A stretch of DNA of 64,000 bases, taken from Verrucomicrobiales bacterium (GTDB lineage: Bacteria > Verrucomicrobiota > Verrucomicrobiia > Verrucomicrobiales > DEV007). The number at the start of each line of letters is the position of its first letter. Position 1 is the stretch's first letter. The stretch spans positions 620,001 through 684,000 of the forward strand of contig PAAG01000047.1 of NCBI GenBank assembly GCA_002698785.1. The letters are read 5' to 3'. Below, in pieces: positions 6,600-64,000 of the stretch. The translations under genes were made by a program, and so were the position numbers. The notes under the pieces are model-generated. The model was not told the DNA's origin, did no database searches, and worked only from the letters and a program-made list of their open reading frames with translations.

Positions 6600-6685
6600 G
6601 GTGGCTGAAGAACCGAATGTGATCCGCAGCGCCTGGATAACCGGGTTGCCTTGCGGGTGCCGCCCACCCTGCTACAGTGGACGGA

Positions 6686-8089
6686 ATGAGAAAACTCCCC
6701 TTTTTCCTTCTTATTTTCCTACTGTCGGGATTTGGCCATTCAGCAGATCGACCAAATATCATCCTGCTCCTGGCGGACGATCTCGGATATCGGGATCTTT
6801 CAAGCTATGGAAGCCCAGCAGTCGAAACACCTAATCTTGACCGCTTGGGAAAAGAGGGTATCCGCTTTGATCGTTTCTATGCAGCATCGGCCGTCTGCTC
6901 CCCCACTCGCGCCTCGATCCTGACAGGCCGATATCCGCTGCGTTTCGGAATTACCAAGCATTTCAATGATGTTAACCGCTGGTTGCCTGAAACGGCTACT
7001 ACTGTTGCAGAATTGCTGAAAGGAAGCGGCTACCAGACGGCCCACGTCGGGAAATGGCACCTGGGAGGACTCCATGTCGATGATAACGGAGAGCGACTGA
7101 ACGATCAGCCCGGACCTGTGCAGCATGGATTTGACTATTATCAGACGCAGATCGAACAGCAGCCACTTCGAGGAAAGATGGGGAAAGAAAGAACGATTTT
7201 TCGTGAGGGAGGAACCGTGTTACTTCGGGACGACAAAAAGGTGCCAGACAGCGATCCATATTTTTCAAAACATCTCACAGATGCCAATGGAGACTACTCC
7301 TGTGAGTTGATTGAAAAACTGGCAAAGGATGATTCTCCGTTCTTTCTCAATCTCTGGTGGCTAGTTCCTCACAAACCTTACGAGCCTGCTCCGGAACCAC
7401 ACTGGTCTGAAACAGAGGCAGAGGGTATCAGCGACGATCAACACCGTTTCCGGTCTATGATGCAGCACATGGATGCGAAGGTGGGAGAAATTCTCGATAC
7501 TCTGGATGAGATGGGAATCGCTGAAGACACTCTCGTCGTTTTCACCAGTGACAACGGCGCTGCTTTTGAAGGATACATTGGAGATCTGAAAGGTGGGAAG
7601 ACGGATCTGCATGACGGAGGTATCCGGGTTCCCATGCTGGCCCGGTGGCCAGGCACGATTCCCGCTGGGCAGCAGAGTGATGCTTTTGGAATCACTACCG
7701 ACCTTTTGCCAACGTTTTGCGAAGCGGCAGGAGTCGAGATTCCGGGGGAACTGTCGCTTGATGGTATCAGTCTTCTTTCGCACTGGAAAAGTGGACCGCC
7801 TCCCACTGAAGCCGAGCGAGGAACTGTCTTCTGGCAACTCGACCTTTATAAAAACATTCAGCGACATTACCCAAAGCCGAAGCCATATGCGACGGAAGTA
7901 GTTCTGAACGAGCACTGGAAAATGCTCGCATTCGAGGGCGAACCTGTCGAACTGTTCGACATCCTGGAAGATCCTAACGAGTCAACCAATCTTATCAAAG
8001 ATAAACCAAAGCTCGTCGAGAAGATGAAAGGAGAGCTTGCCGATTGGTTGAGTGCTGACCGTATTCCCACTGGCGGAAGTGAGCCCTAA
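6686..8089 (+). CDS. Sulfatase (formylglycine-dependent, secreted)
   Basis: 467 residues from the ATG at 6686; a GTG three codons earlier is possible but the ATG gives a clean signal peptide (MRKLPFFLLIFLLSGFGHSA). All family landmarks are present: metal-binding DD at 31-32, the modification motif C71-S-P-T-R whose cysteine becomes formylglycine, GKWHLG, and SDNGA. Length is normal for bacterial polysaccharide sulfatases. The enzyme should remove sulfate esters from sugars in the periplasm or outside the cell. It sits 86 bases behind the large cytochrome gene and 8 bases before a sulfotransferase-like gene, so sulfate removal and sulfate transfer functions are neighbours. The exact substrate cannot be told. 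Confidence 0.93.
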   Translation: MRKLPFFLLIFLLSGFGHSADRPNIILLLADDLGYRDLSSYGSPAVETPNLDRLGKEGIRFDRFYAASAVCSPTRASILTGRYPLRFGITKHFNDVNRWLPETATTVAELLKGSGYQTAHVGKWHLGGLHVDDNGERLNDQPGPVQHGFDYYQTQIEQQPLRGKMGKERTIFREGGTVLLRDDKKVPDSDPYFSKHLTDANGDYSCELIEKLAKDDSPFFLNLWWLVPHKPYEPAPEPHWSETEAEGISDDQHRFRSMMQHMDAKVGEILDTLDEMGIAEDTLVVFTSDNGAAFEGYIGDLKGGKTDLHDGGIRVPMLARWPGTIPAGQQSDAFGITTDLLPTFCEAAGVEIPGELSLDGISLLSHWKSGPPPTEAERGTVFWQLDLYKNIQRHYPKPKPYATEVVLNEHWKMLAFEGEPVELFDILEDPNESTNLIKDKPKLVEKMKGELADWLSADRIPTGGSEP

Positions 8090-46427: not shown

Positions 46428-47918
46428 ATGATTCAAAAATCCCTCCTCGCTCTCGCAGTTCTTTTTTCGGCCTTCATAGGATATACCGCGGACAAACCAA
46501 ACTTCGTTTTCATCATCTCTGACGACATCAGCTACGATGATCTCGGATGCTACGGCAGCATCGATGCGCGAACCCCGCACATAGATTCGCTGGCCGAAGA
46601 AGGTCTTCTTTTTACCAACGCTTATCTCACGGCGAGCAGCTGTAGCCCGAGCCGTAGCAGCATCATCACTGGCCGATATCCGCACAACAATGGCGACGCC
46701 TCCGAACTTCACCGGGCGATCTCCTGGCATATCCCGTCCTTCCCCGGCATGCTTCGCGATGCAGGCTATTACACCGCGCTTGCGGGGAAAGACCACATGA
46801 CCTGGCATCCCGCCCCAGAAGGCGAAACACCTCCCACCGAGCCTTTCGATAAGAAGTACGGTACAAAGGTGAAAGGAAACTCGGGCGGACATGGTTACTG
46901 GGTGGAAGCAATCGAAGAATCCCCAGCCGACCAGCCGTTTTTTCTCTGGCTGGCAGCACTCGATGCACATCGAGCATGGGACGGAGATAGAGAGTGGAAA
47001 GAGGACCTCTACGGACCAATGTACAACCCAGAATCCCTGACACTGCCACCTGCGTTCATTGACACTCCCGAAACCCGGCAGGATTTTGCTTCCTATCTGA
47101 ACGAAGTGACCCGCTTTGATTACTTCGTTGGCCAAGTTGTGGATCGCCTGAAGGAAAAGGACCTTTTCAAAAACACTTACCTCTTTGTCGTGGCCGACAA
47201 CGGACGCCCTTTTCCCCGTGCAAAAACTCGTCTCATTGACGACGGGATGAAGACTTATTTCATTGCAACAGGACCTTCGATTCAGAACCCGGGTGCTCGC
47301 ACAGATTCCCTGATCAGCGTAATCGATATCGCACCGACTATTCTCGAACTAGCCGGTTTGGAAAAGGCAGAAACTCTCCAGGGAAGATCACTAACACCAA
47401 TCTATGAGGACCCAACGGCATCGATTCGTCCGTATGCTTTTTCAGAGCATAACTGGCACGACTACGAGGCACATGGGCGCTCTGTGCGGGATGGGCGCTG
47501 GCTCTACATCGAGAACAATCGGCCGAATCTCGCCCTTCAAGGTCCGGCAGATTCAGTAGGCTCGCCCACCTTCCAGGATATTCTCGCAGCAGCAGAATCT
47601 TCCGAGCCGCTCACACCAATCCAAGCCGACATTCTGCTAGCACCACGCCCCGAGACGGAACTCTACGATATGGATGGCGATCCGCACCAGATCAGCAACC
47701 TTGCGGAAAGCACCGAATACACAGATATTAAGCGCAGCCTCTCGGAGGCTCTCGCAAAGTGGACTGAGAAAACCGCCGACTCCGTGCCTGAAGAAATCAG
47801 CCTGGATGGATTTGATCGTGAAACAGGCAAGAAGACCTTCAAGACTCGGGAAGACTACCAGCGTCCTCCTGCAGGGGCAGACAAAGGAGCCGACAAGGTC
47901 AACGAAGACGGCCTCTAA
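46428..47918 (+). CDS. Sulfatase (formylglycine-dependent, secreted)
   Basis: 496 residues with a signal peptide ([21 protein letters not shown]). Metal-binding D32-D33, the formylglycine motif C72-[12 protein letters not shown] and ADNGRPF are present, with typical sulfatase C-terminal TRPETEL-like ending ([22 protein letters not shown]). This is a heparan-sulfamidase/N-sulfoglucosamine sulfohydrolase-like subfamily by look, but specificity cannot be read. It follows the PSCyt/DUF1501 pair by 3 bases and ends overlapping the stop of the convergent DUF1501 gene. It likely de-sulfates a glycan handled by that group. Confidence 0.93.
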
Positions 47919-49419: not shown

Positions 49420-50739
49420 TCAGGGATTTGGGTAAGTTTCTGCGAGTCGCCTTTGAAAATCGGTAACGACTCCGGGGTTTTGGTTAGCCAGATTAGTGGC
49501 TTCGTCAGGATCGTTCTCGACATCAAACAATTGTATCGGTGCGGTATCCCATTCGTGCACAGTCAGATATTTCGTCGTATCGGCCCCATGATATCTCTGA
49601 AGATATTTCCATCGTCCTTCTCGGATCCAAGCGTATTGAAGCGTATCAAAAGGTTCACCGGGCGTCATGTTGTGAATGGAATATGCAGCTCCAATGACCT
49701 GAGAGCGCTCCTTAGCCATCAAATCAATTCCTGACAGCCCCTCAGGAATATCGAAGCCGCAGAGCTTCACCATTGTGGGGAACAGATCAATTGAACTCGC
49801 GAATCCATCGCGATCACCGCTCTTCAGTTCGCCGGGCAGGGAGAAAAGAATGGGGGTTCGAATTCCGACTTCATAGGGCGACCCTTTCGACTTTGGCGCA
49901 TACTTAAGCCACCAGTCATCTGGCAGTTCGATGGTCGACTCTTCGGCAGCCGCCCATCCGTTGTCACACACATAGACGATCAGTGTGTTTTCAGACAACC
50001 TCCGCTCTTCAAGCATTCCCAGCAACTGCCCACAGGTATCGTCGAACCATTCACACATGGCATAGTAAGTTGCCGTTGCTGGTTCGATATTCTTGTTTTG
50101 ATAGTTCTTCTTGTACTTTTCCTGAGGATTATGAGGTGTGTGGGGAAGAAATGGCGCATACCACAGAAAAAAAGGTTTCTCTTCACTAACTGCCTGGTCG
50201 AGAAAATCGGCAATCGGCTCCATCCCCTCTCTCCCGATCTTCAACCCAACGTCTCCATGGCGCCCACCTTTCTTATAATCCCCATGTGTCATTCCGTGGC
50301 TAAATCCGCCATCTTTCCACGACCCTTCCCACCATTTTCCTGACTGGAATGCAAGGTATCCCCTATCGACAAAAAATCGGACAAGACTCTGCTTTTTGTG
50401 AAACGCCTCCACCACCGGGCGGTCTTCCCGATTCCTCGCTTCCTTCTTGGCAGGACTCACATCATTACCAACAACACCATGTTCGTGTGGATAGAGTCCC
50501 GAAACGATCGAAGCAAGAGAAGGTCGGCAAAGGGGGGAAACGACATACCCTTTTCGATACACAGCACTCCTTTCCGCCAAGGCGTCGAGATTCGGGGTTT
50601 GTACAATGTTGTTCCCCATGAATCCATAGTCCCCCCAACCCTGGTCATCCGAGAGGATGAGGACGACATTTGTCGGTGCCTCCGCAAGAGCGGAGAACAT
50701 TCCCGCAACACTGACCAATATGCTGACAAGGCCTCTCAT
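49420..50739 (-). CDS. Sulfatase family protein with degenerate signature (C-R-P-S-L)
   Basis: 439 residues with a signal peptide ([19 protein letters not shown]). Metal-binding D31-D32, GKWWEG (Trp-type variant of GKWHLG), DNGWAA and the C-terminal [11 protein letters not shown] are present. The modification site reads C71-R-P-S-L75 instead of C-x-P-x-R. The arginine is important for formylglycine recognition in classical sulfatases, so activity is uncertain. The CRPSL form may define a PVC subfamily; I recall similar ones but could not search. It starts one base after the upstream cytochrome gene stop and is certainly in the ECF sigma operon. Confidence 0.87.
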
Positions 50740-55117: not shown

Positions 55118-55990
55118 TCACAGAGGATACCTCTTTTTCATATCGAGATATGCAAGGTTAGACACCTCTCGAATGACGTCGGCACGTCGGGAAATCCATG
55201 ACCCATAGGAGGTGCTCCGCTTACCGCTCTCGATCACCCCTACCACGATGTAAGGATAACTGCGTCCGTTTCGGCCTCGCGCAACGAGTATCCCCATATC
55301 TCCACAACACATCGCCGTGCTTCCCGTCTTGTTGTAAACGGCAGTCCCCTTCGGAATGTGTCGGCAATCATAATAGAGTCGATCGATACCGGGTAGAGCC
55401 ATGACTCGGAGCATCTCCTTCGAATACGGAAGCTGCCCTTTCCAGAGCGCGCTCAGGAAATTTGTGTAATCCGCAGCCGATCCTTTATTGCGATAGGTGC
55501 GCCCGTTGCTTGGAATGTACTCAACCAGACTCAACTGACGACACAACGCGGGATAGTGTTTTTTCAGCAATGCCTCGGTAGCCGCTGGGCCACCCGTCTG
55601 TCTCATGACCCAGTTGGTGGACTCATTGTTACTCTTCTGAATCATGAGCTCCATGTGGCGTCGGCTCGCGGAACCGTAGATAATTCTTCCGGCCTGGACT
55701 TGATGGAAAAAAGCGAGAGCCAGATAGGGCTTCACCATACTGGCAGCTTGAAGCTGAGAATTCTCGTTAATACTCACCAGCTTCTTCCCGGAAGTAAAAT
55801 CATAGACTACCCAGGCTGTCCTCTCATACCCATGAATCACTCCCTTTCGCCGCAGACCTTTGACATACGACTCCACACTGCTCTCCAGAGGGCTGTTGAT
55901 CGCGCCCTGAACAGGAGCGATCTGCAAGGCGAACAGTGCGGTTAGAATGGAAAAAGTGGATATGTGACGAAGCAGCCGGTGATTCCTCAT
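55118..55990 (-). CDS. Beta-lactamase-fold serine hydrolase
   Basis: 290 residues with a signal peptide (STFSILTALFALQIAPVQGA). Active-site motifs of the penicillin-recognising fold are complete: S84-M-V-K87, S120-N-N122 and K221-T-G. The general-base glutamate of class A beta-lactamases (E-x-x-L-N) is not visible, so it looks more like a D-alanyl-D-alanine peptidase or a class A-like relative than a true lactamase. It probably acts on peptidoglycan in the periplasm. It is a single gene on the minus strand between the sigma operon and the desulfonation cluster. Confidence 0.83.
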   Translation of the reverse strand: MRNHRLLRHISTFSILTALFALQIAPVQGAINSPLESSVESYVKGLRRKGVIHGYERTAWVVYDFTSGKKLVSINENSQLQAASMVKPYLALAFFHQVQAGRIIYGSASRRHMELMIQKSNNESTNWVMRQTGGPAATEALLKKHYPALCRQLSLVEYIPSNGRTYRNKGSAADYTNFLSALWKGQLPYSKEMLRVMALPGIDRLYYDCRHIPKGTAVYNKTGSTAMCCGDMGILVARGRNGRSYPYIVVGVIESGKRSTSYGSWISRRADVIREVSNLAYLDMKKRYPL

Positions 55991-56124: not shown

Positions 56125-56142
56125 ATTCACCCAATGGTGAAT
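56125..56142. terminator. inverted repeat after the isomerase gene
   Basis: ATTCACC-4-GGTGAAT, a perfect 7-base-pair stem. Read on the minus strand it lies 31 bases after the isomerase stop and is followed by a T-rich stretch (CCGTTTCTTTGG), so it is a plausible terminator for the leftward desulfonation cluster. Confidence 0.5.
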
Positions 56143-56172
56143 TAGGCGAATTCCACGCGAGATCCGCCCATT

Positions 56173-57072
56173 TCAGGACGGATCTACTGCCCGATAGGCC
56201 TCGACGACGGCCATATCTCCCTCTTTTCCTTTCATCGAATTTCCATGTTCCATCCCGATGATTCCGGCAAAACCCTGCTCCTTGAGATGCGAAAACACCT
56301 TGGCGTAATTGATTTCGCCCGTTCCGGGTTCTTTTCGGCCGGGATTGTCCCCCACCTGGACATACCCGATTTGGTCACGACAGAGATCAAAAAGAGGGAT
56401 GATATTTCCCCCCGCGATCTGCTGATGGTAAATATCGTAGAGCACCTTGCAATTGGGATGGCCTACCGCGTCACAGATCAAAAAGCCCTCAGTCACTGTC
56501 TGAAGAAACGAACCAGGATGGTTTGTAAACCGATTCAAGGGTTCCATGACCATGGTGATATTGTGCGGTTCTACAATCTCAGACGCTCTCCGCAGAAGAT
56601 CGATGCAGTTTGAAAACTGGATCTCTCTCGGCCACCGAGGGTCGACCTGACCGGACACAAGCGTCATGTAACCCGCATTCACCCGCTTCGCTGTCTCTAC
56701 CGTTTCACTGATCTGCTTCAGAACAATGTCATGCGCTTCCTTGTCCCGAGACGCAAAATTCAGCTCCCCGATTCCAGTCTTGGCAGAAACGACACCCATC
56801 GTCATTCCCAGCTTCTCCATCAGAGCTCCGACCGCCTTCTGGTCTTCGACCGGACGTGAGCTCATGCCATTATCTTCCCAAGCGCGAAAACCGTGATCGT
56901 AAGCGAACTGGATCTCATCAAGCAAACCACCCGGAGCGACATTCTTGAACATCCCAAAATGGGGAGCGTAATTCAGGGCAAAAGGATCGCTCGCTTCTAC
57001 AGCCCAGCTCGTAGAGAAAGCAGTAGCAGCGACCGAAGAAGAGGAAAGTGATAGGAAATTTCTACGATTCAT
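56173..57072 (-). CDS. Tat-exported TIM-barrel sugar isomerase/epimerase-like protein
   Basis: 299 residues from the ATG ending at 57072, which begins with a twin-arginine signal (MNRRNFLSLSSSSVAATAF); the frame extends 27 codons further upstream but overlaps the preceding gene. The mature part is an AP-endonuclease-2-type barrel: GRAWEDNGMSSRP-like entry, GYMTLVSGQ, MVMEPLNRF (E and metal site), VLYDIYHQQIAGG, VGDNPGRKEPGTGEINY, GIIGMEHGNS. This is the hydroxypyruvate isomerase / sugar-phosphate isomerase superfamily. It is the last gene of the YeiH-FMN reductase-monooxygenase-aldo/keto reductase run. Export by Tat is common for such PVC proteins; the substrate is unknown. Confidence 0.87.
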   Translation of the reverse strand: MNRRNFLSLSSSSVAATAFSTSWAVEASDPFALNYAPHFGMFKNVAPGGLLDEIQFAYDHGFRAWEDNGMSSRPVEDQKAVGALMEKLGMTMGVVSAKTGIGELNFASRDKEAHDIVLKQISETVETAKRVNAGYMTLVSGQVDPRWPREIQFSNCIDLLRRASEIVEPHNITMVMEPLNRFTNHPGSFLQTVTEGFLICDAVGHPNCKVLYDIYHQQIAGGNIIPLFDLCRDQIGYVQVGDNPGRKEPGTGEINYAKVFSHLKEQGFAGIIGMEHGNSMKGKEGDMAVVEAYRAVDPS

Positions 57073-57082
57073 AGGGGTTTTG

Positions 57083-57979
57083 TCAGGGGATGGAATGTCC
57101 TTTCGCTGCTTGCCAGACAGCAAACCAATCTTCTCGAGCAAAAGGGATGGCACCGCCCGCGGCGCCGTTTCGAATTCTACTCTCCTTGTTCGTTCCGAGA
57201 ATGACAGTGGGCTTCGCCGGATGATTCAAAATCCAACCGTAGACAACAGCATCCATTGTAACCTCGTACTTGTCTGCCAACACCTTCAGGCACTCACGAA
57301 GACGAATGGCATCTTCGTCCTCTTCTGCAAAGACGCGACCTTTCGCCAAGGGAGACCATGCCATTGGGCGAACCTTCTTCTGCAAACACTGGTCGAATGT
57401 CCCATCATAAATCGGGTCCATATGGAACGGGCTGAACTCCACCTGATTCGTAACCAGTTTCCCACCCAGGATGCGGTCCAATGTTTCAAATTGATGAATG
57501 GTGTAGTTCGACACACCTACATTTTTCACCTTCCCGCCATCGAGCAGTTTCTGTAACCCAGAAGCAGTATCTTCAGGGTGGGTTGACCAATCCGGCCTGT
57601 GAACGAGAAACAAATCGATCACCTCAGTTTGTAGCAGAGAAAGCGACTTCTCAGCACACTTCACGAGATTCTCTCCCGTCGCGTTGTATTGAGGGATAGA
57701 CGCGTGCGATTTCTCTTCGGAAGGCACATCAATCCCCGCCTTTGTCACGATCGTCATCTTTTCCCGAAGATCGGGCCTCAACTTGATCGCCTCCCCTAGT
57801 TCTGCTTCTACCCGGTAATCTCCGTAGATCTCTGCAGTGTCCAGTGTTCGAATGCCCGCTTCCAGACACACTTCGAATCGATCTACCAAATCAGCTGCTA
57901 CGGGTTCGATTTCTTCATCGAGAATCCTCCAGGTCCCGTAGGCAAAGTCACCTGTATCGAACAAATATTCGTCGGCCAT
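57083..57979 (-). CDS. Aldo/keto reductase
   Basis: 298 residues from the ATG ending at 57979; an in-frame ATG at 58009 overlaps the previous gene and is less likely. The catalytic tetrad is readable: D47 and Y52 (LDTAEIYG), K80 (IVTKAG) and H127 (LVHRPDW). The C-terminus binds NADPH (VILGTNKESRI). It resembles E. coli YdhF-type reductases (AKR11/12-like). It follows the SsuD-like monooxygenase by 13 bases. In the known sulfoquinovose monooxygenase pathway an aldo/keto reductase of the SmoB type reduces 6-oxo-glucose to glucose; this is the most attractive role here, by analogy of gene content. Confidence 0.9.
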   Translation of the reverse strand: MADEYLFDTGDFAYGTWRILDEEIEPVAADLVDRFEVCLEAGIRTLDTAEIYGDYRVEAELGEAIKLRPDLREKMTIVTKAGIDVPSEEKSHASIPQYNATGENLVKCAEKSLSLLQTEVIDLFLVHRPDWSTHPEDTASGLQKLLDGGKVKNVGVSNYTIHQFETLDRILGGKLVTNQVEFSPFHMDPIYDGTFDQCLQKKVRPMAWSPLAKGRVFAEEDEDAIRLRECLKVLADKYEVTMDAVVYGWILNHPAKPTVILGTNKESRIRNGAAGGAIPFAREDWFAVWQAAKGHSIP

Positions 57980-57992
57980 AATCAAGATTGGA

Positions 57993-59159
57993 TCACTTAC
58001 GCTCGCCAAAGGTCAATGGCGTTTCCGGTGTTTCTGCAGGAAATCGATCCTGAACAATATTCAGCTTCGTCGTATCAAGACGGGGAAGCACGTATTTTGC
58101 GAAGAGTTCGCATTCTTCCAGATGAGGATAACCTGAAAGGATAAAAGCACGCATCCCCATATCGATGTAGCGCTGTATCTTGTTATAGACTTGATCCGGG
58201 TCACCCACGATAGCACTCCCACATCCGGAACGGGCCCGGCCGACTCCCGACCACACATGATCTTCGATGTAGTCGTCCGTCGATTGTGCGCGCAATTCAT
58301 CCTGACGCATCACCCCGGCTGACTTGCTGTCTTGCGAGCGATTCTTGATTTCTTCACCCTTGTCTGCATCCAGCTTGGAGACCAATCGGGACGCGGCAGC
58401 CCGGGCTTCTTCTTCCGTTTCTCGAACAATCACATGAATCCTCAGGCCAAAATCGATCTTGCGACCGAAACCGGCGGCAAGGTCACTCATTTCGCTCATC
58501 GTTTCACCGAGGCGCTCTTCTGTCTCAGGCCACATCAGGAAAACATCGCAATGCTCTGCGCACAGTTTCTTCGCCCCCGGTGAGATCCCACCGAAATAGA
58601 GAAGAGGTCCACCATTTTGCTGATACGGCTTCACCGGATCAGTCCACGGGATTTTCAACTTGTAGTATTCCCCATCGAAATCGATTTCCTCTTTCGTCCA
58701 GCATTGCTTCAAGATCTCGATCACTTCCCGGGCACGATTGTATCTCGCCTCGCTTTCGACTTTCTCTCCGGGAAGATCGGAAGAGATGATGTTCACCGTC
58801 AACCGCCCCTTAGCAATGTGATCGATCGTTGCCAGATGCCTTGCCAACATCGGAGGATGAATCTCACCCATTCGCACTGCGATGAGCTGATTGATATTCT
58901 CCGTTTGAGCAGCCATCGCGGAAGCAAACGGAAGAGGTTCCTGTCCGACTACAAATCCAGAAGGAAGCAGAATATTCTGATACCCGAGTCGATCGGCAGC
59001 TTTCACGATACTTCCGCAGTGCTCGTAGGAACTACGATACTTTCCATCGGGCACCCCGAGGAACTCGTAGTCGTCGCTGCACAGAGCGGAAAACCAGGCA
59101 ACCTCAACCTTGCGATCTGGTGTGCGTATTTCTATCGGCGGGGAAGTGGATTCAGACAT
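57993..59159 (-). CDS. SsuD-type FMNH2-dependent sulfonate monooxygenase
   Basis: 388 residues from the ATG ending at 59159, preceded by 12 in-frame codons that do not look conserved. It is a luciferase-like (LLM) TIM barrel. The residues that bind and desulfonate the substrate in SsuD are all kept: W210 (FLMWPE), R240 and H242 ([12 protein letters not shown]), R310 (GRARSG), Y344 and H346 (LSGYPHLEE). It should use FMNH2 and O2 to cleave a C-S bond and release sulfite plus an aldehyde. The FMN reductase gene is 13 bases upstream. Whether the substrate is an alkanesulfonate or a sulfosugar such as sulfoquinovose (as for SmoC) cannot be decided from sequence alone; the neighbours favour a sugar. 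Confidence 0.92.
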
Positions 59160-59172
59160 GTTTCGTTTCAGG

Positions 59173-59724
59173 TTAGGGTTTTTCAAAAGATTCAATTTTC
59201 TTCGCAGCTTCTGCCAGAACCGGAACTTCCTGAGCCAGGAAATGGATTCTCTTCCTTACCGGACTGTCGTCCGCGAGGACTCCTTCTTCGGTAAAATTAC
59301 TGCGAGCGACATACACGAACCGAGGCGACACCAGGCAACGATAGTCAACCGCGAGGCTGTTGATAAAACCCAGAGGAGCAAGATAGCTCTTTTCGCCAGC
59401 CGCCTGACAGACAAGCCCAATCGCTTTCCCCTTCCAGCTGTTACCAGTCAATTCGATCAGGTTTTTCGCCGCAGCATTCAGGTCATAATTGTAGACAGGT
59501 GAAACCAGCACAATGGCATCAGCCTCTGACAGGCGGTCGGTGAGATTGATCGTCTTCTCGTCCTTGTAGCACAGGTAGCCATCGCAGGCAGGAAGAGAAA
59601 GATCACCAGCATGATCAATATCAGTCTCATGGCCCAAGGACTGAAATTCTCCGGCGATCACGTCCGCCAGGTGAGCGGATTTACCTCCAGGAGCGAGATT
59701 GGAATTTAGAATAGCAATTTTCAT
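59173..59724 (-). CDS. NADPH-dependent FMN reductase
   Basis: 183 residues, flavodoxin-like. Features: opening MKIAILNSN strand and phosphate-binding loop, [20 protein letters not shown] (FMN loop), [15 protein letters not shown]. This is the FMN_red family that includes SsuE and SmoA. It should supply FMNH2 to the SsuD-type enzyme encoded 13 bases downstream. The interval before its start contains the same TGACAAAACTCCTATG junction as the isomerase gene. Cofactor preference is inferred from the family. Confidence 0.9.
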
Positions 59725-59734
59725 AGGAGTTTTG

Positions 59735-60913
59735 TCAGGAGAAAAAGAGTTTCACAATTAGAATAACAAGGACAGCAAGAATCCCCGAAGCCGCCGATGC
59801 GGCAACGATAGGTCTCCAACCGATATCTTTCGCCTGGGAAAGCCGAGTCTGGTAGCCCACTGCTACCATTCCCATCGCGAGGAGGATGCCTGAAATTTTC
59901 TTCAATACTTTTGCGAGGTCGAAGTCAACTCCGACATCTCCGGCGCCAACCAATCCGGACCATTCAAAATGCATCGAGGGCAAAAGCCCCATCGATCTCA
60001 CAACCGCCAAAATTAAGAACCCAAGAGCAAATCCGGGAAGCAGTCGATACCATGGCTTCGCCTTTCCCGGGCCACCCATCCCACCATCAAGAGAAGGCTG
60101 CCGCGATACCCACCAGCCGAGGATCACTGCCATTGGGGCGAGGAGACAAACACGCGCCAACTTGGCCACTGTAGCGACTTGCCCAGCCTCATCTCCATAA
60201 GCAAATCCCGAGGCAATAACTTGCGGGGTCTGGTGAATCGTTAAACCGGCCACCAATCCAAACTGAGTTTGAGAAAGCCCCAGCCACCCCGCAATCACTG
60301 GAAGAACCAGCATTCCGATCAGGCCTAGCAATGTCACCAAACCGACCCCGAGCATAATGTCCCTGTCGCGAGCGGAGAGAATGGGAGCGATCGCAACGAT
60401 TGCCGTTCCACCGCAGATCCCCGTCCCTACCCCCAGAAGGAGCGCCAATCGGTTTTCAATCTTAAAAATTCTCCCGAACACGAGCAGTAAAATCAAAGAG
60501 CAAACCACCACAGCCGCGCTCAAACCAAGCCCCGGTAGACCAACTCTCATCGCTTCGAAAAAGTCCATACGTGCACCGAGGAGAATGATCCCGATGGGCA
60601 AAATCTTTCTCACCGTCACACTCATTCCAGGCAACCACCTGGCTGCCGCAGCAGTATTCCCGACCACTAATCCTAACAGCATCCCAACGAGAACTGGATC
60701 AACCAGGCTCGCTTTCGTCCATCCCGCCGCATTCAGCACCATGGGGATTCCCATAGCAACAAGAGTCAGGCACAACGCAAGCACCACTCCAGGCCACTGG
60801 CGAACGGGGGCACTGCTGGTAACAGGCTCCCCACCTTCCATCCAGATAAGATGTTCCGCCCACGCATATTGCGGGGGAGTTACATCGCTCGCTGGTGTGG
60901 CACTGTCGGTCAT
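59735..60913 (-). CDS. YeiH/UPF0324 family membrane transporter (sulfite/sulfate exporter)
   Basis: 392 residues with about 10-11 membrane helices after a 40-residue soluble N-terminus. The family signature GVGTGICGGTAIVAIAPI and the repeat VAGLTIHQTPQVIASGFAYGD are present. YeiH-type proteins are annotated as putative sulfate exporters; the E. coli homologue is linked to sulfite stress. As first gene of the monooxygenase operon it most plausibly exports the sulfite released by desulfonation, matching the role of a sulfite exporter in sulfoquinovose-monooxygenase loci. It ends 10 bases before the FMN reductase start. Confidence 0.9.
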   Translation of the reverse strand: MTDSATPASDVTPPQYAWAEHLIWMEGGEPVTSSAPVRQWPGVVLALCLTLVAMGIPMVLNAAGWTKASLVDPVLVGMLLGLVVGNTAAAARWLPGMSVTVRKILPIGIILLGARMDFFEAMRVGLPGLGLSAAVVVCSLILLLVFGRIFKIENRLALLLGVGTGICGGTAIVAIAPILSARDRDIMLGVGLVTLLGLIGMLVLPVIAGWLGLSQTQFGLVAGLTIHQTPQVIASGFAYGDEAGQVATVAKLARVCLLAPMAVILGWWVSRQPSLDGGMGGPGKAKPWYRLLPGFALGFLILAVVRSMGLLPSMHFEWSGLVGAGDVGVDFDLAKVLKKISGILLAMGMVAVGYQTRLSQAKDIGWRPIVAASAASGILAVLVILIVKLFFS

Positions 60914-60965
60914 TTGCTGGTTGGCGTAAAAAAGTTTCTACAATGCATTAATTTCATTTGCAACA

Positions 60966-60985
60966 AAATACTTGATTTGGTATTT
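60966..60985. promoter_or_regulatory. inverted repeat in the divergent promoter region
   Basis: AAATAC-8-GTATTT between the divergent YeiH and Gfo/Idh/MocA genes, 21 bases before the latter's start. It is a possible operator for the regulator whose gene begins at 63842. Only one copy was found, so this is tentative. Confidence 0.35.
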
Positions 60986-61006
60986 CGGAAAGACACCCTT
61001 GAATTT

Positions 61007-62341
61007 ATGACGACAGAAAATCCCCCATCTTCCTCGACACGCCGGGTATTCCTCGAACGTTCTTCGGCGATGTCAGCGGCTTCAATCACTCTGGCACTGG
61101 CATCGCAAACTCCAGTTCACGCCGCCAGCGGAGACGGCAAACTGAAGCTCGGTCTTGTCGGGTGCGGAGGTCGCGGAGCCGGTGCCGCCAACCAGGCAAT
61201 GACCGCCGATGACGGAGTCGAACTTTTCTCTATGTGCGACGTCGACCGCAGTGTCCTCGACCGGGCTCACGACATCATCGATAAGAAACACGAAGGTCGT
61301 GTCGACGTACCTGAAGAACGCCGCTACAGCGACTTCGAGGGATATAAGCGCGTCATCGCCGATTGCGACATCGTCATCCTCGCGACCTCGCCTGGATTTC
61401 GTCCCCAGCATTTCGAAGAGGCCGTCGCACAGGGAAAACACGTCTTCATGGAAAAGCCTGTCGCAACTGATGTCACGGGGATCAAGAGAGTGATCGAGGC
61501 AGGAAAACAGGCCAAAGCAAAGAACCTGAAAGTGGGAGTAGGACTGCAACGCCGCCACCAACCCGGCTATCAGGAATGGATAAAGCGAATTCAGGATGGC
61601 GCGATCGGAGACGTGCTCGTGATGCGCGCCCTCTGGAACGGATCTTCTCGTCCCGGAAAACCACGCATCGAGGGGGAGACCGAACTCGAATACCAGATCC
61701 GCAATTGGTACTACTTCACCTGGCTGTCTGGAGATCACAATGTCGAGCAGCACGTTCACAATCTCGACGTGGTCAATTGGATGAAGGGTGACCAGCACCC
61801 TGTCCTTGCTCGAGGAATGGGAGGTCGCGAAGTCCGAAACAAAATGGAAAACGGACAGATCTACGACCACCACTTTATCGAATACGAATACGCCGACGGA
61901 ACCGTGATGTACAGCCAGGCTCGCCAGATTCCCAACTGCTGGCGTAGCATCAGTGAGTCCGCCATAGGCACTCTGGGACGAGCAAATCTAGAACAGCGCG
62001 AATTTACCATCTCAGGACCCAACGCCGATACCATGCGCTTTCGGAAAAACGAAGACGGTCACCAACTGGAACACTATCCGCTTTTCAAAGCGATTCGGGA
62101 AAACCTCGAATACAACGAAGCAGAAAGAGGCGCCATGGCCACCATGACAGGGATTCTCGGTCGCATGGCGAACTACTCAGGAGTGGAAGTGACTTGGGAT
62201 GATGCCATGGCATCTAATCAGAAACTCGTTCCAGACGATCTCGTCGACTTCAGCTCTCCTGCTCCAGTACAACCTGACAAAGACGGATGGTATCCTGTAG
62301 CCGTTCCCGGCGTCACCGATCCATTCCAAGTTTGGTATTAA
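61007..62341 (+). CDS. Tat-exported Gfo/Idh/MocA oxidoreductase (GH109/GH188-like fold)
   Basis: 444 residues from the ATG at 61007; the frame is open further upstream but the twin-arginine signal (RRVFLERSSAMSAASITLAL) starts here. Rossmann motif GLVGCGGRGAG, D (CDVDRS), and the EKP motif (HVFMEKPVATD) are intact, with GDHNVEQHVHNLDVVNWM in the second domain. Several exported members of this fold are NAD-dependent glycosidases (GH109, and the NAD-dependent sulfoquinovosidases). It is divergent from the desulfonation operon and could release the sulfosugar from its aglycone, but a plain sugar dehydrogenase is equally possible. An MFS transporter follows. Confidence 0.88.
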   Translation: MTTENPPSSSTRRVFLERSSAMSAASITLALASQTPVHAASGDGKLKLGLVGCGGRGAGAANQAMTADDGVELFSMCDVDRSVLDRAHDIIDKKHEGRVDVPEERRYSDFEGYKRVIADCDIVILATSPGFRPQHFEEAVAQGKHVFMEKPVATDVTGIKRVIEAGKQAKAKNLKVGVGLQRRHQPGYQEWIKRIQDGAIGDVLVMRALWNGSSRPGKPRIEGETELEYQIRNWYYFTWLSGDHNVEQHVHNLDVVNWMKGDQHPVLARGMGGREVRNKMENGQIYDHHFIEYEYADGTVMYSQARQIPNCWRSISESAIGTLGRANLEQREFTISGPNADTMRFRKNEDGHQLEHYPLFKAIRENLEYNEAERGAMATMTGILGRMANYSGVEVTWDDAMASNQKLVPDDLVDFSSPAPVQPDKDGWYPVAVPGVTDPFQVWY

Positions 62342-62425
62342 CGAACCCTAATCACGCCGGAAAGAACAGGGTTTACTCAAAAGGGGAACCCTGTAACATC
62401 CCTTCCCTATCTTGCCGATATTTCT

Positions 62426-63829
62426 ATGAGTTCTCCCGCAGATTCCAACCTCCGCTGGTACCAGGGCATTACCAAATACCAGTGGCTCGTACTCTTGATC
62501 GCCAGCCTTGGCTGGGTTTTTGATATTTTTGAAGGTCAGATCTTCGTCGCCTCGATGCGCGACGCGATGCCAGACCTCCTGGGAGTGACTCCAGACGATG
62601 CCAGCGTAACGAAATGGAATGACTGGGCATTTGGAGCGTTCCTGTTAGGCGGCGCTATTGGAGGGATCCTGTTTGGGATGCTCAGCGACCGGATCGGCAG
62701 GTCGAAGACTATGATCATCACGATCTTGTTTTACTCCCTGTTCACCTGTGTGAGTGCATTTTCTCAGGAAGGGTGGCACATGGTCGCTCTGCGATTCCTC
62801 GTCGCTATGGGTGTCGGGGGAGAGTGGGCGGTTGCCTCGGCAATGGTGGCCGAAGTAATGCCAACAAGATCACGCCCTGTGATGAGTTCCATCTTTCACG
62901 CATCGAGTGTGTTCGGAACACTGTTGGCAGTGGCTGCCATCGCCCTCCTTATCGGCAACCCTGAAGTAAATGCTTGGTTCGCTGAAAGGGGAATCGATGG
63001 CTGGCGTGCAGGCTTCTTCATTGGAGTGATTCCCGCCTTCTTGACGCTCTGGATCCGCTGGAAGCTTCGCGAGCCAGAATCCTGGACTCAAGCGAAGGAA
63101 CGGGAGAAAGCGGATGCCACCCAGAAAACAGGAAAGCTTTCCGACCTATTCGCCAAAGAACATATTCGAAATACCTTCGTCGGGGTGAGCCTCGCAACCA
63201 TCGGACTGGTCACTTTCTGGGGAGGTCATATTTATGGAAAAAATGCCCTGCTCAGAAAAGCCGAAGCCGACGTCCTCGTCGTTGCAAATATAGCGCCCGA
63301 TGCTCCGAAAGAGGAGAAAGCCGCTGTTCTGGGAACAGATGAAACCAAGGCGAAACTGAAGCGAGCCGAAATGCTCAGTATGACGATCAACACGATTGGT
63401 GGGGGGCTCGGTCTTGTGCTGTTTGGATGGATCTCTGACAAGATGGGCCGAAAAGGAGCCTTTATTTTGTATCACGCAATGGGCTTCATCACTATGGTGA
63501 TACTGTTCAAATTTCTGATACCGGGAGGTGCCTCTCAAATCGCGCTGGCGCTATTCCTTCCGATTTTTGGATTCTTCACTCTGGGGATGCATGCAGGGTA
63601 TGCTGTGTACTTCCCGGAGCTCTATCCGACACGACTTCGAGGCACCGGAGCGGGTTTCTGTTTTAATGCCGGCCGACTCGGCACCGCTGCAGCGTTCTTT
63701 GGTTTCGGAATGATGGCATCACCTCCCAGCCCGGAGAGCAAAGCGTTGCTACTGTCCCCTCTATACCTTCTTGGCATTGTCGTGGTGCTAATGGCGAAAG
63801 AAACTCGCCGACAGGAATTAATGGACTAA
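62426..63829 (+). CDS. MFS transporter, sugar/acid type
   Basis: 467 residues with 12 predicted helices. The MFS signature between helices 2 and 3 is GMLSDRIGRSKTM, repeated after helix 8 as GWISDKMGRKGA; RFLVAMGVGGEWAVASAMVAEVMP is typical of the sugar/sialic-acid/aromatic-acid branch. A 45-residue insertion with charged helices lies between helices 6 and 8. It follows the Gfo/Idh/MocA gene by 84 bases, same direction, and would import the substrate for the divergent operon. In ABC-type sulfoquinovose loci the importer is different, so this is a variant if the pathway is right. Confidence 0.9.
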   Translation: MSSPADSNLRWYQGITKYQWLVLLIASLGWVFDIFEGQIFVASMRDAMPDLLGVTPDDASVTKWNDWAFGAFLLGGAIGGILFGMLSDRIGRSKTMIITILFYSLFTCVSAFSQEGWHMVALRFLVAMGVGGEWAVASAMVAEVMPTRSRPVMSSIFHASSVFGTLLAVAAIALLIGNPEVNAWFAERGIDGWRAGFFIGVIPAFLTLWIRWKLREPESWTQAKEREKADATQKTGKLSDLFAKEHIRNTFVGVSLATIGLVTFWGGHIYGKNALLRKAEADVLVVANIAPDAPKEEKAAVLGTDETKAKLKRAEMLSMTINTIGGGLGLVLFGWISDKMGRKGAFILYHAMGFITMVILFKFLIPGGASQIALALFLPIFGFFTLGMHAGYAVYFPELYPTRLRGTGAGFCFNAGRLGTAAAFFGFGMMASPPSPESKALLLSPLYLLGIVVVLMAKETRRQELMD

Positions 63830-63841
63830 CATTCATTCCGC

Positions 63842-64000
63842 ATGGACCCAGCAACTCTCGAGTGCCTCCTGGTCCGGGAGATCAGAAAAGCCAACGAGAT
63901 CTCTCGTCGCGACCTCGCGGATCGACTCGAAGTCGCTCGATCGACTGCAGGTCGACGTGTCGACAGCCTCATCGATCGGGGATTACTTCGGGAGAAAGGG
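63842..64000 (+). CDS. HTH transcriptional regulator, probably ROK type, C-terminus cut by window edge
   Basis: 53 codons to the edge without a stop. The visible part is a winged helix-turn-helix (LVREIRKANEISRRDLADRL, STAGRRVDSLIDRGLL), as at the N-terminus of ROK-family repressors and MarR-like regulators. ROK repressors control sugar operons, fitting the context: it follows the MFS gene by 12 bases. The effector-binding part is outside the window, so the family is tentative. Confidence 0.6.
   Translation, partial: MDPATLECLLVREIRKANEISRRDLADRLEVARSTAGRRVDSLIDRGLLREKG

Follow-up and report, generated by a model that had tools for sequence, protein, structure and literature searches.

Can a member of the Verrucomicrobiota break the carbon–sulfur bond of sulfoquinovose (SQ), a sulfosugar of plants whose output is put at about 10 billion tons per year (PMC10755693, PMC12890257)? 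The question is raised by positions 56173–63829 of a 64,000-nucleotide stretch of Verrucomicrobiales DNA (hereafter the window; assembly GCA_002698785.1, contig PAAG01000047.1). Here a leftward run of five genes, one of them for a flavin-dependent monooxygenase, faces divergent genes for a Gfo/Idh/MocA (Gfo) protein, a major facilitator superfamily (MFS) transporter and a ROK-type regulator, each in an open reading frame. As judged from sequence, the locus most likely does break this bond. We think it probable that it represents the sulfolytic sulfoquinovose monooxygenase (sulfo-SMO) pathway as it occurs in Verrucomicrobiota, and the analysis supports a new variant of that pathway, centred on the monooxygenase SmoC and probably controlled as a unit.

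A sequence-only reading of the same DNA had named the gene families, and these hold: there are Pfam matches to AP_endonuc_2, Aldo_ket_red, Bac_luciferase, FMN_red, Cons_hypoth698 (YeiH), GFO_IDH_MocA and MFS/Sugar_tr. The host, taken for a bacterium of the Planctomycetota–Verrucomicrobiota–Chlamydiota (PVC) group, indeed has its kin in the Verrucomicrobiales. Counted from ATG starts, the leftward genes are separated by gaps of 10, 13, 13 and 10 bp, which makes it likely that they form one operon. The helix-turn-helix regulator that had been noticed in the divergent run is also there; it runs off the window, is 368 amino acids long when read from the genome, and was assigned to the ROK family by eye.

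In the pathway that we propose, the MFS protein would import SQ and the FMN reductase would give FMNH2 to SmoC, which together with O2 would cleave the C6–S bond to yield sulfite and 6-dehydroglucose. The aldo/keto reductase would convert 6-dehydroglucose to glucose, and the YeiH protein would export sulfite or sulfate. The ROK-type regulator would switch both divergent runs through a site at 60949–60970. Two proteins predicted to leave the cytoplasm by twin-arginine translocation (Tat), the Gfo protein and a TIM-barrel protein, would act outside it, most likely readying SQ glycosides for uptake.

Much of this is familiar from other bacteria. The chemistry of sulfo-SMO and its SsuE-type reductases are known, and reviews assign the pathway mainly to alpha- and beta-Proteobacteria (PMC9594981, PMC12890257); a 2026 survey of aquatic genomes adds Actinomycetota and Spirochaetota to its hosts (PMC13372026). 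Among the titles and abstract openings that our searches of open-licence papers listed, we found no report of sulfo-SMO in Verrucomicrobiota or Planctomycetota. A paper that these searches did list (PMC12555021) concerns UDP-sulfoquinovose synthase.

The locus resembles the sulfo-SMO and sulfo-ASMO systems (Agrobacterium SmoABC, Novosphingobium SquDF) in its SmoC-clade monooxygenase, aldo/keto reductase, FMN reductase, exporter and sugar-type regulator. With the SMO clusters of Ruegeria TM1040 (L152) and Rhizobium SL42 (L153) it shares smoC, an aldo/keto reductase, a flavin reductase and a divergent Gfo gene, and in both of these an exporter-annotated gene similar to YeiH lies near the cluster. 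Import, however, would rely on an MFS protein rather than the ATP-binding cassette (ABC) system of Agrobacterium (PMC8873060) or the tripartite ATP-independent periplasmic (TRAP) systems of the Ruegeria and Rhizobium SL42 clusters, so that the different transport already suspected is real; the regulator also differs, being ROK-type where those two clusters have GntR. The FMN reductase is of the flavodoxin type, the cluster has no recognised GH31 or GH188 sulfoquinovosidase, and the Tat-exported Gfo and TIM-barrel proteins are extra. A YeiH-type exporter is not new to such loci, nor is an SsuE-type reductase: both are on record from within or beside sulfo-SMO clusters.

A monooxygenase of the SmoC/SquD clade

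Is the monooxygenase a sulfoquinovose enzyme or an alkanesulfonate monooxygenase of the SsuD type? Against solved structures it scored 463 bits to 7olf and 459 bits to 7oh2, which we take to be the Agrobacterium and Rhizobium SmoC structures (their PDB entry names are methanesulfonate sulfonatase and alkanesulfonate monooxygenase), compared with 200 bits to SsuD (1nqk). It reached 266 bits with the NCBIfam SsuD model, below the cut-off of 518. In a tblastn search of plasmids, all 30 records at E ≤ 1e-60 were at least 50% identical to it; at E ≤ 1e-20, where 60 of 508 records were listed, those labelled ssuD did not exceed 37.2%.

A 54-row tree (39 loci that we chose from the 115 of our wider set, plus controls; the program warned of long outgroup branches) splits 46 SmoC/SquD-side rows from SsuD with support of 99/99 and a branch length of 2.22. 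The SquD-type rows of Novosphingobium sp. EMRT-2 (L156) and R. rhizoryzae (L151) branch first (94/94); L156 serves as a proxy for the N. aromaticivorans proteins that have been studied, and we assigned the SquD/SquF labels of both rows ourselves. The window's enzyme falls inside a PVC clade of 17 rows (100/98), whose sister group holds 7olf and the Ruegeria and Rhizobium rows. Moreover, 52 alignment columns hold a residue that five SmoC/SquD rows share and four SsuD rows lack; in 43 of them the window's enzyme has the SmoC/SquD residue. The tree and these residues place the enzyme on the SmoC/SquD side; by its sequence it is a member of that clade and not an SsuD. The sequence-only reading had named firm clustering with alkanesulfonate-only SsuD as one result that would count against it; the tree, the structure scores and the plasmid rows agree in showing no such clustering. 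A row from the window's own family, L069, groups with Flavobacterium in this tree, perhaps through transfer or mis-binning.

Six sulfonate-binding residues had also been put forward. They are present (W222, R252, H254, R322, Y356 and H358 counted from the TTG at 59195; W210, R240, H242, R310, Y344 and H346 counted from the ATG at 59159), but all four SsuD rows compared have them too, and we reject them as proof of a sulfosugar enzyme.

Could the locus instead carry out generic alkanesulfonate desulfonation for sulfur supply, in the manner of SsuD and SsuE, with sugar genes there by chance? The pairing of an FMN reductase with a monooxygenase would fit, as would the residues common to SsuD, and a search of the window's own genome with the monooxygenase returned only itself at E ≤ 1e-3, which gives no sign of an SsuD encoded elsewhere. 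The tree and the diagnostic residues argue otherwise, however, and the neighbours are sugar-type genes and an exporter. By eye, no sulfonate ABC transporter was recognised among the surrounding open reading frames listed; export of sulfite is the reverse of scavenging; and a 22-bp site lies in the promoter common to the operon and the Gfo gene. We regard this explanation as very improbable.

A closer alternative keeps the chemistry and changes the substrate to a sulfonate or sulfosugar other than SQ, such as sulfofucose or a glycoside of SQ. The different importer, the extra Tat-exported Gfo and TIM-barrel pair and the sugar-type regulator are compatible with this, and nine of the 52 SmoC/SquD-specific residues differ in the window's enzyme. 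The clade itself is possibly not uniform: 12 of the 46 SmoC-side rows (L090, L095, L102, L104, L106, L109, L116, L133, L136, L147, L154 and L155) have Leu and a one-residue gap at the position of the sulfonate-side His358 and may act on a different substrate, and in the Spirosoma row L155 Phe further replaces both R322 and Y356. None of these rows belongs to the window's PVC clade, though, and the window's enzyme keeps His358 and is placed between the SquD-type and the 7olf SmoC-type branches. A different substrate seems unlikely to us, and we found no positive evidence for the new sulfosugar entertained by the sequence-only reading.

How widespread is SmoC among the relatives? With the window's own genome included each time, the family has it in 30 of 74 genomes (E ≤ 1e-60), the order in 88 of 386 sampled (E ≤ 1e-90) and the phylum, sampled evenly, in 6 of 387. 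A scan of named genomes confirmed 574 stretches, and the best 80 fall in Verrucomicrobiota, Planctomycetota, Bacteroidota, Spirochaetota, Chloroflexota, Cyanobacteriota and others; many of these records are metagenome bins, so single-phylum claims could stem from mis-binning. Among the records whose titles do not mark them as bins are those of Brevifollis gellanilyticus, Spirosoma fluviale, Lacihabitans soyangensis and Scytonema tolypothrichoides, and the presence of SmoC in B. gellanilyticus NBRC 108608 (L086) makes the claim testable in a named strain. Gene neighbourhoods were compared at 35 SmoC loci, drawn from the window's genome and from our searches of the family and of the phylum; we read off all counts out of 35 ourselves, and because many contigs are short, absences may be contig ends.

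Some neighbours of smoC elsewhere deserve mention. SoxC-like sulfite-dehydrogenase genes lie near it in one Verrucomicrobiota and three Bacteroidota loci (L041, L106, L115, L155), pointing to sulfite oxidation there. In L091 and L084, DUF1080-like proteins (3-keto-disaccharide hydrolase type, by eye) adjoin the smoC operon, and on the 34-kb plasmid pEMTOL05 of Emticicia oligotrophica (L154) a smoC-type gene adjoins a sodium/solute symporter gene and a GH95 gene.

A conserved site in the divergent promoter

Are the two divergent runs controlled together? The pseudo-palindrome TAATTTCATTTGCAACAAATTA, exact or in close variants, recurs in nine of the 13 divergent spacers compared (the window's and those of 12 loci); in L055 it is weaker, and it is missing from L157, L068 and L059. 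With up to two mismatches, the 22-bp site is found 15 times in 14 of the 35 SmoC loci, and five site-bearing loci (L045, L050, L052, L053 and L056) lie outside the set that defined the consensus. Allowing up to four mismatches raises the count to 20 sites, where five block shuffles gave 4.2 on average; most site-bearing loci come from one genus and are hence not independent.

A genome-wide scan of 16 genomes at up to two mismatches found the site in eight of nine genomes with SmoC and in none of the seven counted as lacking it. G412, a genome counted as lacking SmoC, has a contig that ends just past yeiH, so that its SmoC is possibly unassembled. Nine of the 11 sites stand at the smoC locus, and the reversed site, used as a control, matched once across all 16 genomes. 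The window's own genome has two off-locus sites, with one and two mismatches, beside genes judged unrelated by eye.

The rearranged locus L053 has one copy of the site between yeiH(-smoC) and the ROK gene, and a second between the Gfo and FMN reductase genes. This double site is the best evidence that the Gfo protein and the FMN reductase work with SmoC, and it suggests that the smoC and Gfo/FMN-reductase promoters form one regulon. We infer that the ROK-type protein binds this site as its operator.

Aldo/keto reductase, exported proteins and transporters

Which enzyme would deal with 6-dehydroglucose? In BLAST comparisons, the window's aldo/keto reductase is 36–37% identical to those of the Ruegeria, Rhizobium and Novosphingobium smoC clusters, and by eye it has the residues D-Y-K-H, which we take to be the catalytic tetrad of the family. 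In its tree (from which the 27% identical aldo/keto reductase of L128 was left out) it belongs to a 12-row PVC clade (99/98) that also holds two Opitutae proteins encoded next to smoC; this clade lies on the side of the Ruegeria, Rhizobium and 7bby SmoB proteins rather than YdhF, with moderate support (84/92).

The earlier proposal of a related pathway is upheld insofar as the locus is a SmoC-centred sulfo-SMO variant, but the aldo/keto reductase that it included is no regular part of such loci. Only the window, among the 35 SmoC loci, has one within 6.5 kb of smoC. Proteins of its cluster occur in 23 of the 115 loci of the wider set and in 13 of the 74 family genomes; a SmoB query at E ≤ 1e-10 matched in eight of 19 SmoC-bearing genomes and gave no match in 11 of 15 from the same genus. 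These scans took in whole genomes, some of them incomplete. The window locus thus appears more complete than those of its near relatives. In R. rhizoryzae (L151), too, no aldo/keto reductase match lies within about 9 kb of the smoC-type gene, so a distant reductase gene is not peculiar to Verrucomicrobiota. The aquatic survey required SmoB and SmoC both within 10 open reading frames (PMC13372026) and would probably miss loci like the other 34, although SmoC is found in almost a quarter of the sampled genomes of the order.

The reductase missing from SmoC-bearing relatives is a testable gap. Directly after smoC, several Verrucomicrobiota (L086, L038, L039, L063, L066 and others) have a gene for a Gfo protein lacking a twin-arginine (RR) leader, 348 amino acids long in L086 and L038 and in L086 nearest to 1,5-anhydrofructose reductase; this protein is a candidate for the missing 6-dehydroglucose reductase. 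For the smoC-adjacent Gfo proteins of Verrucomicrobiaceae (cluster C4) we rejected a GH188 assignment, since the L086 protein scored 93.5 bits to the 1,5-anhydrofructose reductase 2glx and 66 to 8qc2; L086 alone was used for this test, and the GH188 label is doubtful for the other rows, at 24–29%. It is plausible for the Gfo rows of L087, L097 and L103, which are 36–46% identical to the Ruegeria protein.

The window's own Gfo protein is a different matter. That it is Tat-exported, as first noticed, is borne out by an RR leader whose two arginines never vary (20 of 20 aligned homologues); its start is most likely the ATG at 61007 and not 60851. The TIM-barrel isomerase likewise matches its family (PF01261), and its own RR leader, conserved without exception (11 of 11 aligned rows), had been overlooked. 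Its structure model (mean pLDDT 78.3) is nearest to folds of the D-tagatose 3-epimerase and hydroxypyruvate isomerase type, and it carries an EPLNR motif, which we take to be typical of the epimerase/Hyi type. Fold searches with the Gfo and TIM-barrel models returned generic matches only.

Could the Gfo protein be a sulfoquinovosidase? The sequence-only reading had suggested an NAD-dependent Gfo-fold glycosidase in place of GH31, but such an enzyme is already published as GH188, near-universal in Roseobacter SMO clusters (PMC10755693). The window's protein has its fold in common with GH188 (SqgA) and is not detectably a member. It has no phmmer match to 8qc or 8zn9 chains and no BLAST similarity to the Ruegeria Gfo protein, both at E ≤ 1e-3, whereas the Ruegeria protein, as a positive control, scored 379–540 bits to the solved chains 8qc2, 8qc3 and 8zn9; in Foldseek, 8qc2 came at rank 39 among many generic Gfo folds. 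We rejected the GH188 assignment on these grounds. The window's protein is also exported, whereas the Ruegeria protein has, by eye, no RR leader at its annotated start.

A different precedent comes from oxidation–elimination–hydration pathways, in which Gfo oxidoreductases and sugar-phosphate-isomerase-like partners act on levoglucosan and natural-product glycosides (PMC7676230, PMC10628242), and a Gfo route for SQ glycosides has been considered in Arthrobacter, with no companion genes reported (PMC8873060). The window's pair resembles the Gfo dehydrogenases of the levoglucosan (lgd) and Agrobacterium OGE/HYD pathways with their isomerase-like partners. BT2156–2160 are genes of an oxidation–elimination–hydration glycoside pathway. 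The likeness to such oxidoreductive 3-keto-glycoside pathways is confined to folds and genomic pairing: TIM orthologues (>430 bits) occur in 12 of the 74 genomes, all 12 with Gfo (p = 2e-7; inside the genus 7e-6; the genomes are related and not independent). Gfo orthologues (>500 bits) occur in 25 genomes, 15 of them with SmoC. Co-occurrence with SmoC is weak for both Gfo (p = 0.024; inside the genus 0.28) and TIM (p = 0.011; inside the genus 0.43). Possible companions for the Gfo protein thus adjoin smoC in the window, yet they also occur without SmoC. Taken furthest, the exported proteins could be a periplasmic oxidation/elimination pair that frees SQ from its glycosides in place of GH31 or GH188, the relatives could run a SmoB-less sulfo-SMO with another enzyme for 6-dehydroglucose, and all could belong to one ROK regulon; we consider this whole picture improbable.

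As for the remaining proteins, the MFS transporter comes nearest to the NCBIfam models of the aromatic-acid and sialate H+ symport families, with scores that fall far short of the cut-offs. The YeiH protein is 33% identical to the product of the exporter-annotated gene near the Ruegeria SMO cluster. The FMN reductase (PF03358) has no BLAST similarity at E ≤ 1e-3 to the Ruegeria and Rhizobium cluster flavin reductases, and scores 19 bits to MsuE.

Several results weigh against the proposed pathway. The aldo/keto reductase scored 208 bits to YdhF-type PDB chains and 190 bits to SmoB (7bby/7bbz), and the Novosphingobium protein lies elsewhere in its tree on a long branch. Across the 74 genomes it shows no association with SmoC (five of 30 genomes with SmoC against eight of 44 without, p = 1.0; inside the genus, one of 23 against three of 10, p = 0.07), and 10 of the 25 Gfo-bearing genomes lack SmoC. 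The MFS protein is 70–77% identical to transporters beside Gfo where no SmoC was found (L157, where the contig edge limits that absence, L160 and L164) and just 40–56% identical to those at SmoC loci, so its cargo is putative. No sulfoquinovosidase was found: a GH31 query, run with no positive control, gave no match, and the best match of a GH188 query reached 92.6 bits at 30%. At up to two mismatches the 22-bp site is absent from 21 of the 35 SmoC loci and, genome-wide, from the SmoC-bearing genome G397. Three-mismatch forms stand 5' of Gfo in two genomes without SmoC (L160, L164), so the site may belong to a ROK–Gfo–MFS module as much as to smoC.

Perhaps, then, the working unit is limited to smoC, the importer and the regulator, and the Gfo, TIM-barrel and aldo/keto reductase genes are passengers from other sugar systems. 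Near smoC in the 35 loci, the reductase was found once, TIM seven times and Gfo 18 times; remnants of Gfo stand beside smoC in G388 and G392; and the ROK–Gfo–MFS group without a found SmoC has the weaker site. Yet the site in L053 precedes both smoC and the Gfo and FMN reductase genes, Gfo remains near smoC across rearranged loci, and no TIM orthologue was found without Gfo. We find this explanation doubtful, though it deserves to be taken seriously, and prefer the co-regulated sulfo-SMO variant.

Features of the locus and its surroundings

Table 1. Coordinates and assignments of the features, numbered in the window.
Feature	Position	Strand	Basis
Possible terminator stem 3' of the operon, weak	56125–56151	-	13 such sites in the region against 7.7 (s.d. 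2.8) in shuffles
Tat-exported xylose-isomerase-like TIM-barrel protein (hydroxypyruvate isomerase/tagatose-3-epimerase type)	56173–57072	-	Pfam PF01261, RR leader, fold model
Aldo/keto reductase, SmoB/YdhF type; proposed 6-dehydroglucose reductase	57083–57979	-	Pfam Aldo_ket_red, BLAST, tree
SmoC/SquD-type FMNH2-dependent monooxygenase	57993–59159 (open reading frame opens at TTG 59195)	-	Bac_luciferase, PDB scores, tree, diagnostic residues
NAD(P)H:FMN reductase, flavodoxin-like; proposed FMNH2 supplier	59173–59724	-	PF03358 FMN_red
YeiH-family exporter; proposed cargo sulfite/sulfate	59735–60913	-	PF03601, Cons_hypoth698
22-bp pseudo-palindrome TAATTTCATTTGCAACAAAATA in the divergent promoter; proposed operator	60949–60970	.	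Conservation across loci
Tat-exported Gfo/Idh/MocA oxidoreductase, not detectably GH188	61007–62341	+	GFO_IDH_MocA Pfam
MFS transporter; proposed sulfosugar importer	62426–63829	+	MFS/Sugar_tr Pfam, NCBIfam
ROK-type regulator, start only	63842–64000 (to 64948 if window numbering is carried on)	+	Family by eye

Just downstream of the operon, positions 55118–55990 encode a class A beta-lactamase-like protein (PF13354) that scores 35.6 bits against a cut-off of 200 for the class A model and is hence not a typical beta-lactamase. Apparently unrelated to the sulfonate locus, several sulfatase genes and large cytochrome-type/DUF1501 pairs (by eye) lie in the window or just beyond it, at 6677–8089, 46428–47918 and 49420–50739 and at L002 10094–11512.

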